A program made the position numbers and the translations under genes. Positions 35,185 to 64,000 of a stretch of 64,000 nt of DNA are shown one piece after another. Under the pieces are notes generated by a model that was not told the DNA's origin, searched no databases, and worked only from the letters and a program-made list of their open reading frames with translations. Numbering within the stretch: the stretch's first letter is position 1; every line of letters begins with the position of its first letter. Origin of the DNA: Nitrospirota bacterium (GTDB lineage Bacteria; Nitrospirota; Leptospirillia; Leptospirillales; Leptospirillaceae); contig JAJZXW010000021.1 of NCBI GenBank assembly GCA_021806225.1, forward strand, positions 151,471 through 215,470, given 5' to 3'.

Positions 35185-35260
35185 AGGCGGATAGCTCAGT
35201 CGGTAGAGCACAGCTCTTACACAGCTGTTGTCGCGGGTTCGATCCCCGCTCCGCCTACCA
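35185..35260 (+). tRNA. tRNA-Val (UAC), CCA encoded
   Basis: AGGCGGA/TCCGCCT acceptor, CAGCT-CTTACAC-AGCTG anticodon arm, GCGGG-TTCGATC-CCCGC T arm. Confidence 0.93.
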
Positions 35261-35328
35261 TATTTTAAATCATTTTTCTATTTCCTCTTTCATAACATTG
35301 ATTTATTGGGATATTTTGGGGACATCGG

Positions 35329-35354
35329 CTCCGAAAAACATCACCTTTTCGGAG
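35329..35354 (+). promoter_or_regulatory. 9-bp perfect inverted repeat ahead of integrase fragment
   Basis: CTCCGAAAA-ACATCACC-TTTTCGGAG; right arm overlaps the GGAGG before ATG 35362. Confidence 0.6.
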
Positions 35355-35361
35355 GCGCCCC

Positions 35362-35547
35362 ATGGCAACAATCACCAAGCGCGGCGATCTTCAATGGAAG
35401 GTGAAGGTCAGAAGAATGGGTTTTCCTCTTCAGTCCAGGTCCTTCGACGCGAAGGCCGAATCCGAGGCATGGGCTCGCCTGGTCGATGGGAAAAATTGGT
35501 GCCTGTCTCTATATTGCGACTTTTCCGACTATCCCGGCAGGCAATAA
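35362..35547 (+). pseudogene. Truncated tyrosine-integrase N-terminal (arm-binding) fragment
   Basis: MATITKRGDLQWKVKVRRMGFPLQSRSFDAKAESEAWARLV, then unrelated sequence and stop; adjacent to tRNA. Confidence 0.75.
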
Positions 35548-35598
35548 GGTATGCCATGATTCTCCTCGTCGATCACCCCTGTGAAGGAGGAAAGAACG

Positions 35599-36021
35599 AT
35601 GAGAGACACGCAGCTGTCACAGAATTTGTCTTCGACACTGGGACTCATGAAGATGAAAGGCCAAATCATCGCTCAACATGAGGAGCGTTTGCGCCAGGCT
35701 CAGCTCAAGAGCGACGTGGCAGCGCTGAGCGAGCTTATTGCAGACGAAATCCAGTTTGTGTTCTTGGACGGATCGGTCACGACGAAAGAAATGGACCTGG
35801 AAGCTCACCGCACCGGAAATATTCGAGTCCAGTCGATCGACTTTTCGGAAGGCGATATTCGTTGCCTGAGCGATTCGGTGGTGACGGCAACAGTTAAAGC
35901 GGCGATGGTCGTTGTTTTTCAGGGGGAAGAAGTTCGGGGCAACTACCGATACTGCCGTACATGGTTGGAACGGAACGGCAGATGGCAAATCGTTGCTGGT
36001 TGCGTAAGTCGGTGTCTGTGA
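35599..36021 (+). CDS. SnoaL/DUF4440-like NTF2-fold protein
   Basis: IIAQHEERLRQAQLKSDVAALSELIADEIQFV...; AAGGAGG upstream of ATG. Confidence 0.72.
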   Translation: MRDTQLSQNLSSTLGLMKMKGQIIAQHEERLRQAQLKSDVAALSELIADEIQFVFLDGSVTTKEMDLEAHRTGNIRVQSIDFSEGDIRCLSDSVVTATVKAAMVVVFQGEEVRGNYRYCRTWLERNGRWQIVAGCVSRCL

Positions 36022-36071
36022 ATCTAGCAGTTGATAAATTCAAGAATTCATCTACCCTTTGGGGGTCGGCA

Positions 36072-36430
36072 ATGATCGAGAAGAGTTTTGCAGAGGAATT
36101 TGCAAGAAGCTGGATTGATGCTTGGAACAGCCATGATCTGGAGCGAATTCTTTCCCACTATTCAGACCAGTTCGAAATGTTTTCCCCTAAAATCATCCAG
36201 ATTGCAGGGGAGCCCTCTGGAACACTCAAGGGCAAAGATGCGGTCGGAAAATACTGGACAATGGCTCTCGGTCTTGTTCCCGACTCAGGTTCGAGCTCAT
36301 CGCCTTGCTGATCGGTGTCAACAGTCTCATTCTCTCCTACAAGGGGACTCAAGGCCGGATGGCGGCAGAGGTTTTTTACTTTGGTTCCGATCATAAGGTC
36401 AAAAGTGCCTATGCGCATTATGCCGTATAA
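36072..36430 (+). pseudogene. Frameshifted SnoaL-like NTF2-fold protein
   Basis: ARSWIDAWNSHDLERILSHYSDQFEMFSP...LGLVPD then frame change near 36284-36291 to RFELIALLIGVNSLILSYKG...KVKSAYAHYAV*. Confidence 0.7.
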
Positions 36431-36534
36431 GGAAGCCACAGGGGACCTGATTTCTGGAATTCGACGGACTGGACTTGAAAGATACCATCTTTTTCTTTTT
36501 TAATTTCTGCCGGTTACCCAAAAAGGAGAATCCC

Positions 36535-37014
36535 TTGAGCGAAGCCTTCGATCCTCTCATCCGATTAAGATCTCCCCGCGAAAGACTGGGGGGATATGCC
36601 ATTCTGCCCAGGCTTATCGACAAGGTCCGGCTTCACCATCTCGGCATTCTTCCCGACGAGTACTGCCAAAAACTCCTTTCGTCGGATCAAAGTGCCGCCC
36701 TGGATGGGTGCTTCTTAAAATTCGCCGGAATAGATCCTGAAAGCCTCCGGAAAACGATCCTTTCTGTATCCGAAGACCAGGAGGTCGCCGACTGGGTCGA
36801 ACGAAACGCCCTTTCCCATACCCAGACGGAGAAAGAAGCCTGGGAAACGGAGCTCGTTCGAAGGTTTTCCGATCCGACCCCCGAGCGAATCGCCATTAGA
36901 TCCAGGCTTTACCCTGAACTTGCCGAAAAGCTTGGGGCGAAGACCTTAGGAGCTCTGGATCCCTTTAAGATGATCGATTTGGACGAAGGACGGATTTCCA
37001 TCGGGTCTCTGTAG
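36535..37014 (+). CDS. DUF5069-family protein (TTG start)
   Basis: LRSPRERLGGYAILPRLIDKVRLH; AAAAAGGAG before TTG. Confidence 0.75.
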   Translation: MSEAFDPLIRLRSPRERLGGYAILPRLIDKVRLHHLGILPDEYCQKLLSSDQSAALDGCFLKFAGIDPESLRKTILSVSEDQEVADWVERNALSHTQTEKEAWETELVRRFSDPTPERIAIRSRLYPELAEKLGAKTLGALDPFKMIDLDEGRISIGSL

Positions 37015-60368: not shown

Positions 60369-60392
60369 CCTCATTTGTCTTTCTTCAATCAG

Positions 60393-60464
60393 GCCGGCGT
60401 AGCACAGTGGTAGTGCAGTCGATTCGTAATCGACAGGTCGTCGGTTCAATCCCGACCGCCGGCT
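60393..60464 (+). tRNA. tRNA-Thr (CGU), CCA not encoded
   Basis: GCCGGCG/CGCCGGC acceptor, GTCGA-TTCGTAA-TCGAC anticodon arm, GTCGG-TTCAATC-CCGAC T arm. Confidence 0.93.
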
Positions 60465-60566
60465 CCCGTTTTAAGCCATTCCCAGAAAATTCCTTGCCAT
60501 AAAAAAGGTTTTTGCCATTATTACGCCATAGTGAGGTCGTTCGGAAACTCTTCTCCGGAGGAAATT

Positions 60567-61430
60567 ATGGCGACGATCCGAGAAGGCGGTCCCTATCAGT
60601 GGCAAGCTCAAGTCCATCGCAAGGGCCAATCCCCCCAATACAAGACATTCAACAACAAGGCCGCCGCGGAGAAATGGGCGCGTCAGGTAGAAGCCGAAAT
60701 GGATCGGGGCGTTTTTATCCCACGGAAAGACGCTGAAAAAACAACGCTTTCTGACGCCCTGGACAGATATCTTCGGAAAGTCACAATCCACAAGAAAAAC
60801 CAGAGATCGTAAAAGATCTACGTCGAAACGTGGAAAAAGGCATTCGGCCTCCGCTCCATGGCCTCCATTTTTCAATCCGATATCGCAAACTACAGGGACG
60901 AACGGCTCAAGGTCGTCTCACCCAACATGGTCCGTCTTGAACTGGCGCTTCTCTCCCACCTGTTCACGATCGGTGTCAAGGAATGGGGCATGGCCGGGCT
61001 TGTCAATCCGGTGATGCAGATCCGGAAACCCAAGCTCCCAAGGGGCCTGGACCGCCGGCTTCTTCCGGGGGAGTTGGACCGGATCCTTTCTGCTTTTCCT
61101 CGCCGGATAGACGGGAAGGTTGGGGGAGTGGAGGAACATTCTATCACACGGGCGTTCCAGCGGGCTGTCGCCAGGGCCCGGGCGAACTACGAGAAGGAAT
61201 GGGAGGAGAAGGGGATCAAGCCGGATCCCGCCTTCCTCGTGGATCTCACTTTCCACGATCTTCGGCATGAGGCCACGAGCCGCTTCTTCGGGAAAGGATT
61301 GAATCCTATGCAGGTTGCGGCAATCACCGGCCACAAGACGTTGCAGATGTTAAAGCGGCATACTCATTTAAAGGCAGAGGACCTGGCGCTGTTGCTGAAA
61401 CAACCTCCTCCTTCCCATAGAATGGATTGA
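60567..61430 (+). pseudogene. Degenerate tyrosine integrase
   Basis: In-frame TAA 60810-60812; first half of catalytic domain missing; HDLRHEATS retained but MLKRHTHLKAEDL has His at the expected Tyr. Confidence 0.9.
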
Positions 61431-62198: not shown

Positions 62199-64000
62199 CT
62201 ACTTCGGCAGATCGGATACATCGAGAATCCCGTCTCCGGGTCTGCCGTTCCCGCCGGAGGGCGTCACGTTTCCTCCGGAAGCGGAAGAAGCCGCAATCGG
62301 AGTTGGCGATGAGTTCTGATTCATGTTCTCAACAATATTCTCGATGGGAGGGGGAACCGCCAGATTCGAAAAACCATCTCCAGAGCCGCCAGATCCTCCG
62401 CCGGTCCCCGGGAATATGGTCCCGGGTCCCGATAAGGTCAGGGCCGGAAGGGAGTAGTTCAACCACGAGAACCCGGTTCCGGATCCGGAGAAGTCGGCGG
62501 ACGACAAGGTCGCGGTCACGTTATGGGTACCGGCGGAGGACGAGGAAAAGGTTCCCGTCGCGCCCGTATAGGTCGCCCCCTGTCCCGGGACGAACCCGGA
62601 GAGAGTTGCCGACGAGTTCAACGTGGTGAGCGCGACGCTTGTTCCTCCGTCGTAGGTCATCGTCGGGTTCGAAAGGCCCACGGAGGAGAAGTTGAGAGGA
62701 ACTGTCGTGATGGTCCAGATTCCTGAAACCAGGCTGACGCTCCCCACGCTGGTCTGTGTGGTCGGGGCGGAGAGGGAGACGGTCGGCGTCACGGCGTAGG
62801 TGCCGGCGTTCGGTCCCGCCGTGGCGGTGATCCCGGAGGTGAGCGCGGAGCCCCCCATGGTGACGGACTGGGTGTAGGAAGTTGTCACCGTCTGCCCGTT
62901 GTAGAGCGATGTGCCGGAGGATCCCGTCACCGTGTCGACGGGCAGGTCGGAAACGAGAACCGGGGCGGTGATACCGGAGCCGACGGTGACGCCCGAACCA
63001 ATATACCAAGTGGCCGAGGGCGTCGAAAAGGTTCCGGTGGCCGCATTCCATCCCGTGAACGATCCGAGGTTGGAAAAGGTCGTACTGTTGTTGGAGGTGG
63101 AATTCGAGAAAAAGGAGCAATTGGTGCAAGGCGTCCCTCCCCCCAACTCCCTCGAAGAGGAGGACGAAAGATAGTAGGAGGTCTCCACCGTGCCGCTGTT
63201 GATCCCCACGATCCCGCCGACGTAGTTTCCCCCGCTGACGCTGAGGCTGACGCTCCCGGTGTTGTAGGAGGTTTCCACCGTGCCGCCGATGTTCTCTCCC
63301 ACGACCCCGCCGAGATAGCCTCCCCCGCTGAGGTTTCCGGTGTTGTAGGAGGTCTCCACCGTGCTGAGGTTCTCTCCCACGACCCCGCCGAGATAGCCTC
63401 CCCCGCTGACGTTTCCGGTGTTGTAGGAGGTTTCCACCGTGCCGCTGCTGCTGTTGTCCCCCACGACCCCGCCGACGTCGTTTCCTGTCCCGCTGACGTT
63501 TCCGGTGTTGTAGGAGGTCCCCACCGTGCCGCTGTTGATCCCCACGACCCCGCCAATGTTGGAGTATGCCCCCCCATTGACCGTGCCCTCCACCCCCAGA
63601 TTCTCGACTATCCCTCCCGACCCCAGGTCCCCTATGAATCCCGTCCCGCTGCTGTTCGTCGCCGTGATCGTGTACCCGGAGACGGTATGCCCCTGCCCGT
63701 TGAAGATGCCGGTGAAGAGGTAGCTGGAGGAGGATGCGTTCCCCAGGGGGGTCCAGTTGTAGTTCGTCCCGCCAGAGAACAGGTTGATATTGGCCGTGAG
63801 CGCGATGCAGACGTTCGGGTTGTTCAGATAGGTGCTTTGGCTGAAATCGATCGCCTCGAGGGCCGAGGCCGTTCCCACGTCCGTCACCGTCGGGTCGATG
63901 GTGATCGTTCCCGGGATGCCATTGGGCGCCGAGACGTCGAGCGGCGAGGCCTCGTCGAGGACGACCCGGCTCCCGTCCACGGTAATCGCTCCTCCGTTGC
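62199..64000 (-). CDS. 3' part of GLUG/YDG-repeat surface protein (filamentous haemagglutinin-like), open at window edge
   Basis: GGVVGENLSTVETSYNTGNLSG repeats, TMTYDGGTSVALTTLNSSATLSGFVPGQGATYTGATGTF; frame continues past 64000. Confidence 0.85.
   Translation of the reverse strand, partial: NGGAITVDGSRVVLDEASPLDVSAPNGIPGTITIDPTVTDVGTASALEAIDFSQSTYLNNPNVCIALTANINLFSGGTNYNWTPLGNASSSSYLFTGIFNGQGHTVSGYTITATNSSGTGFIGDLGSGGIVENLGVEGTVNGGAYSNIGGVVGINSGTVGTSYNTGNVSGTGNDVGGVVGDNSSSGTVETSYNTGNVSGGGYLGGVVGENLSTVETSYNTGNLSGGGYLGGVVGENIGGTVETSYNTGSVSLSVSGGNYVGGIVGINSGTVETSYYLSSSSSRELGGGTPCTNCSFFSNSTSNNSTTFSNLGSFTGWNAATGTFSTPSATWYIGSGVTVGSGITAPVLVSDLPVDTVTGSSGTSLYNGQTVTTSYTQSVTMGGSALTSGITATAGPNAGTYAVTPTVSLSAPTTQTSVGSVSLVSGIWTITTVPLNFSSVGLSNPTMTYDGGTSVALTTLNSSATLSGFVPGQGATYTGATGTFSSSSAGTHNVTATLSSADFSGSGTGFSWLNYSLPALTLSGPGTIFPGTGGGSGGSGDGFSNLAVPPPIENIVENMNQNSSPTPIAASSASGGNVTPSGGNGRPGDGILDVSDLPK
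63190..63575 (-). repeat. Imperfect tandem GLUG-type coding repeats (about 26 aa unit)
   Basis: Recurrent GTTGTAGGAGGTYTCCACCGTG and CCCACGACCCCGCCG blocks. Confidence 0.8.

Follow-up and report, generated by a model that had tools for sequence, protein, structure and literature searches.

Two decayed integrase loci at tRNA genes of a Leptospirillaceae contig and an apparent arm-site recognition code in their integrase family

Why should two tRNA genes on the same bacterial contig each be followed, at almost the same distance, by the beginning of an integrase gene? We addressed this question in a window of 64,000 nucleotides, the whole stretch of DNA analysed here (Nitrospirota bacterium of the Leptospirillaceae, contig JAJZXW010000021.1, positions 151,471 to 215,470). 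The right end of the window is the end of the contig, and the host genome is a draft (67% complete, 54 contigs). The original prediction held that two related tRNA-targeting elements had inserted with the same attachment-to-integrase geometry and had then decayed.

A tyrosine integrase gene adjoins the 3' end of the tRNA gene at both loci, as in genomic islands, and the coordinates of all features are collected in Table 1. The Val fragment begins 101 nt after its tRNA, as announced (tRNA end at 35260, ATG at 35362). An integrase was also found where expected after tRNA-Thr, at a distance of 99 nt instead of the 102 nt proposed (60467 to 60567, the latter being the ATG). Both genes encode tyrosine integrases, and these are related, with N-termini that are 43% identical over 44 aa (E=1e-11, for a single comparison). 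The two spacers start in a similar manner, TATTTTAAATCATT for Val and GTTTTAAGCCATT for Thr, and can be aligned weakly better than shuffled sequences, their score being reached by 18 of 1000 shuffles in global and 9 of 1000 in local alignment. Both integrases are dead remnants, since homology of the Val frame is cut at about codon 44 and the Thr gene contains a stop (TAA at 60810-60812) and misses about 58 residues (model positions 178-235), a gap that takes in the region of the first catalytic Arg. The shared insertion geometry and the decay of both elements thus stand as predicted. An intact integrase, as expected of an active element, is found at neither locus; the catalytic domain is absent from the Val copy and truncated in the Thr copy. 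PF00589 is detected in intact relatives and in the C-terminal part of the Thr integrase, with R196, HDLRH and Y331 conserved (R...HxxR...Y). The G+C content is 50-54% at 35-37 kb, against about 65% around. Taken by themselves, the Val and Thr loci are ordinary remnants. Close to the contig end, at 62199-63980, the minus strand encodes a YDG-domain protein; a homologue in genome G012 has internal repeats.

Table 1. Features of the two tRNA loci in the window (positions are those of the window).
Feature	Position	Strand	Remark
tRNA-Val(tac)	35185..35260	+	ARAGORN; attachment gene
Val spacer, 101 nt	35261..35361	+	putative integrase arm of attL plus int leader
Val leading motif TATTTTAAATCATT	35261..35274	+	family form TTTTAAGCCATT
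Val putative arm word copy 1, GGGATA	35308..35313	+	1 base off GGGACA; 47 nt past tRNA end
Val putative arm word copy 2, GGGACA	35319..35324	+	11 bp from copy 1
Val inverted repeat CTCCGAAAA/TTTTCGGAG	35329..35354	+	covers Shine-Dalgarno; predicted hairpin, folding z = -4.0
Val integrase N-terminal arm domain fragment	35362..35547	+	homologous over ~44 codons; G013 truncated at same point
Val island cargo: DUF4440 (NTF2-like) gene	35581..36021	+	
Val island cargo: SnoaL-like fragment	35961..36311	+	
Val island cargo: DUF5069 gene	36475..37014	+	homologue in G013 Val island, same distance
tRNA-Thr(cgt)	60392..60467	+	ARAGORN; attachment gene
Thr element spacer, 99 nt	60468..60566	+	
Thr putative arm word copy 1, GCCATT	60514..60519	+	1 base off GCCATA; 46 nt past tRNA end
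Thr putative arm word copy 2, GCCATA	60525..60530	+	11 bp from copy 1
Thr integrase N-terminal part (arm domain, beginning of core-binding domain)	60567..60812	+	ends in stop
Thr integrase C-terminal part	60858..61430	+	lacks residues ~178-235

Relatives of the fragment were present in 17 of the 41 genomes searched, and nearly all of them start 89-124 nt after a tRNA gene of the same strand (Val, Thr, Leu, Ala, Ser, Gly, Lys, Met, Cys, Arg, Glu, Asn, His or Gln). The comparison set comprised about 150 relatives. In GTDB genomes, 80 loci of the same layout came to light, belonging to Nitrospirae drafts, Acidithiobacillus, Burkholderiaceae, Pseudomonas, Dyella, Desulfovibrio and others; when the order containing a Pseudomonas genome was scanned, hardly any family members turned up. 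Since the same arrangement recurs beside some 16 tRNA kinds in Nitrospirota, Proteobacteria and viral contigs, the tRNA-to-integrase geometry is a family trait. The description of the two loci as twins is therefore right in assigning them to one family and lacks support in pairing them specially. The observation named beforehand as speaking against a spacing peculiar to this pair, the same spacing at other tRNA-integrase pairs, was indeed made, mostly in the range given above. The leading motif also extends beyond the window, GCCA being present within the first 22 nt of 29 of 38 host-family spacers.

Elements at tRNA-Val could be followed into congeners. Both G004 and G013 have, after the same tRNA-Val, a spacer and an arm fragment of the same type, and these two fragments are the closest relatives of the Val fragment (75% identity in G004). 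The G004 frame is open up to the contig end, and the G013 fragment stops at about the codon where that of the window does. A 38-nt, 89% identical copy of the tRNA-Val 3' half, interpreted as attR, lies about 3.9 kb beyond the G013 fragment (C88:5256-5293), and the interval contains a DUF5069/SnoaL gene, a cupin-like gene and others (names read from translations). As the DUF5069 region is about equally distant from tRNA-Val in both genomes, the Val islands of the window and of G013 are homologous. In relatives the repeated att sequence is the tRNA-Val 3' half from the anticodon loop onward. The partial tRNA-Val copy of G008 (C36:32385-32435) begins at this loop (CTTACACAG...), which would place the crossover there. 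The downstream attR proposed as a check was thus absent from the window, where no attR of either tRNA was found, and came to light as attR-like copies of the tRNA-Val 3' half in G013 and G008. In both tRNA-Val attR copies (L055 5256-5310, L110 4386-4440) the sequence GGGAC(T) is located just inside the junction, where, in these two cases only, it might serve the far end as its arm site. tRNA-Val is without an element in G002, G003, G007, G011 and G012, with flanks that differ among all of them; sequences downstream of tRNA-Val varied too much among relatives for a clean empty site to be demonstrated.

The spacers contain two direct copies of a 6-bp word located exactly 11 bp apart, in a repeat frame that reads roughly TTTG-nnnn-A. 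At offset 11, a match of at least 8/9 was obtained in 76 of 112 spacers, and any other offset from 4 to 25 gave 0-7; taking the best tandem match at offsets 10-12, the same level was reached by 81 of 112 spacers versus 25 of 1120 shuffles. The distance between the tRNA end and word 1 is clustered at 46-50, 57-59 and 69-74 bp (84 loci), and each step between clusters is one helical turn. Among the 76 loci whose distance is below 90 bp, these clusters account for half, a quarter and a sixth, respectively, with a Rayleigh p of 4e-18 for phasing at 11 bp. We found no missed upstream word copy behind the 57-59 and 69-74 clusters. The distance from the word to the ATG, for its part, is dispersed (24-102 bp). 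Because the helical phase is tied to the crossover and not to the gene, the words look like integrase arm sites, and the spacer is best read as the integrase-binding arm of the element. Repeated arm-type sites beside a core site, a mark of arm-domain recombinases, are recognised here by sequence only. Words were called mechanically, with the frame misplaced at some loci; of 62 new loci, 18 yielded none over threshold, several of them with a word visible by eye.

Two simple determinants of the word were tried and rejected. Common words are each present at several different tRNAs, so that tRNA identity does not set the word. Avoidance of the same word between genome-mates was not supported either: the host family contained 2 same-word pairs where 4.9 were expected (p 0.1), and the broad set showed the opposite trend (10 pairs against 1.8 expected).

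Tandem words upstream of a gene could also be operators of the int promoter, serving an unrelated regulator or autorepression by Int, and not recombination arm sites. A possible -35-like TTGATT is present beside the words in many spacers, and exact inverted copies of a locus's own word occur between word 2 and the ATG at 22 of 135 loci, compared to 1.5 expected from swapped words (maximum 6). However, the words are locked to the tRNA end by helical steps and not to the start codon, and the word follows the arm residues of the integrase itself (see below), which an unrelated regulator does not explain; autorepression by Int is compatible with an arm-site role. We consider operators an improbable explanation and retain arm sites as the preferred one. 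Carriers of inverted own words include L117, L118, L131, L177, L009 and L135. In some spacers the inverted copy forms a predicted hairpin over the ribosome-binding site. The CTCCGAAAA/TTTTCGGAG repeat of the Val spacer buries the Shine-Dalgarno sequence, and similar hairpins are predicted in several, not all, relatives. A Shine-Dalgarno hairpin was rejected as a family-wide feature, with a mean z of about -1 and many spacers devoid of it (Val, z -4). Where present, such hairpins may keep Int synthesis low, in some elements and not generally.

We then turn to the protein. An AlphaFold model predicts, at the N-terminus, the three-stranded sheet (strands 2-8, 11-16 and 24-28) and helix (31-46) that characterize arm domains, and the model of the whole integrase matches lambda and Tn1549 Int. 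The arm domain alone found no relative by sequence among solved structures and was unrecognised by Pfam at the curated cut-off. Strand 2 reads W-x1-A-x3-I-x5, in which, given strand alternation, every second residue would face one side of the sheet. The word tracks four residues of this sheet, namely residue 5 together with x1, x3 and x5, even between integrases whose catalytic cores are less than 50% identical. In 114 non-redundant loci, mutual information peaked between x1 and base 2 (z 15), residue 5 and base 3 (13.4), x5 and bases 5 (12.6) and 6 (10.4), and x3 and bases 3 (10) and 4 (9). Expressed as triples (x1,x3,x5), E,Q,R corresponds to GCCACA, E,R,R to GCTCCA, H,Q,R to GGCACA, Q,K,R to GGGACA, Q,Q,[I/L/H] to GCCATA and Q,[I/L],K to GTCACC.

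Rules were fixed in writing before new loci were read, and 42 new loci formed the test set; the first held-out set had offered no case for rules P7-P9 and two for P1. R, H or K at x1 was accompanied by G at base 2 in 17 of 22 cases (base rate 0.45), K at x3 by GA in 7 of 8 (0.19), QQ[ILH] by GCCATA in 5 of 5 (0.12) and R at x5 by CA in 24 of 35 (0.57), while all 7 loci with another residue at x5 had a word not ending in CA. In a third set, made of viral contigs, we obtained one over-threshold hit of HQR type with GGCACA, two further ones by eye and, in a single case, a miss (GTCACC predicted, GGCACC seen); a scan of viral contigs for H-type arms found none. The R-to-G rule is broken by WRAQ types, which have GCTACA, and the code needs context residues.

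Both remnants of the window fit the rules, Val with K,K,R and GGGACA, Thr with Q,Q,H and GCCATA. Val (L005) belonged to the training set; Thr, whose decayed repeat is below threshold, was outside it, and its fit was not blind, its spacer being known before the rules were written. Since their arm residues and words differ, Val and Thr are two specificity lineages of one family and not twins born of one event, and the notion of a recent duplicate pair has to be abandoned. For the same reason, it is hardly credible that the two loci are copies of one element that moved between tRNAs within this genome. Such a move would account for the common family, the near-identical spacing and the similar leading motif, but the nearest relatives of the Val fragment are the Val-tRNA fragments of the congeners, and those of the Thr type are Arg and Lys elements (L030 82%, L015 70%).

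An association between residues and words could simply reflect shared ancestry, related integrases having inherited related spacers. Close relatives do often have equal words, and with core identity capped at 92% the nearest core relative predicts 31% of them. If ancestry alone were at work, the nearest core relative should be the best predictor. With core identity capped at 50%, the whole word was correctly predicted by the four residues in 29% of cases, in contrast to 4% for the nearest core relative, 4% for the rest of the arm domain and 3% at random; the corresponding values per base were 64% (four residues), 49% (rest of arm), 43% (core) and 45% (random). Among pairs with cores 60-92% identical, the word was identical in 20 of 24 pairs with an identical triple and in 12 of 176 with a different one. 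Contrasts between disjoint sister pairs were significant for x3 and x5, and not for x1 versus base 2 (12/23 against 15/35); Q at x1 may accept several bases, which would explain the latter. Two natural swaps point in the same direction: the cores of L077 and L008 are 86% identical, with a different arm strand and the words GTCACC and GCTCCA, and L131 and L118, at 90% core identity, carry GTTGTA and GCGACA. As judged from these comparisons, the residue-word association survives control for relatedness, and shared ancestry as its sole cause is largely refuted and very unlikely.

Our main reading, to which we give a probability of roughly 0.8, is that both loci would be the attL ends of decayed islands whose arm-domain integrase docked on two phased words by means of a four-residue reading. 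One family of arm-domain tyrosine integrases would have driven both integrative elements. Such an element would recombine into the 3' half of the tRNA gene, at the anticodon loop, and the next 100 nt or so would be element DNA, comprising the leading motif, the two arm sites spaced by 11 bp, the int leader and the start codon. The 6-bp word would be held in a fixed helical phase with the crossover, the N-terminal three-stranded sheet would dock on both words, and the tetramer would bridge arm and core. Residue 5 of strand 1 and x1, x3 and x5 of strand 2 would read the word in order, x1 contacting base 2, x3 bases 3-4 and x5 bases 5-6. The layout, the phasing and the residue-word association are apparent from the sequences compared; we infer from them physical contact, a role in the intasome and possible autoregulation through arm sites close to the int promoter. 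It also seems fairly probable that these four residues constitute a near-modular code for a phased 6-bp word presented twice, arm and word changing together between otherwise nearly identical integrases, so that specificity could be deduced from sequence and perhaps predicted.

Arm-binding domains, like arm sites, are familiar features of tyrosine recombinases (PMC8138268). The predicted fold, with three beta-strands and a helix before the core-binding and catalytic domains, resembles lambda Int and Tn916/Tn1549 Int (PMC8138268), in line with the match of the integrase model to lambda and Tn1549 Int. Unlike in those arm-domain recombinases, the arm domain studied here escapes Pfam and the word varies widely within one family. 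The loci resemble Islander tRNA-targeting islands, in which the integrase gene lies beside the restored tRNA gene and the far end is marked by a displaced 3' tRNA fragment (PMC4383910), except that those of the window are remnants without attR there. The arm sites of Cluster K phages are 11-bp repeats next to the core, and their integrases differ at residues 17 and 19, proposed to be recognition residues, where arm-site position 7 differs (PMC3203893). That case concerns one position in closely related phages, whereas the present one involves four residues, five bases, many words, taxa and tRNAs, and a control for relatedness. IntS of ICEMlSymR7A has five arm-type motifs in attP, and attP-bound Int limits intS transcription (PMC11963761); consensus and arrangement differ from ours. 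We found no systematic arm code in the open-access papers that we searched, and we do not claim priority.

The family pattern, an apparent arm recognition code, is of more interest than the two window loci. Arm-site specificity decides which integrase is paired with which element and the control of direction, and is described case by case in the open-access papers that we searched. A code derived from natural variation would allow arm sites to be found by sequence, would mark the part of attP needed by an integrase and would guide the design of swaps; the natural pairs that combine 86-90% identical cores with distinct arm domains and words lend themselves to such a test.

Some further features of the family were noted. 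In a second layout, read from sequence, the integrase is located at the attR end and points away from a reversed tRNA fragment, with the arm words kept (L074, L078, L116, L125, L126, L128 and L129 among others). Within the first 20 nt past the tRNA, Proteobacterial members (L115-L189) have a AAATCAAnnnCTTA-like sequence in place of the AAGCCATT of the host family. Finally, one relative genome, G001, harbours 13 matches to the integrase family at E below 1e-20.
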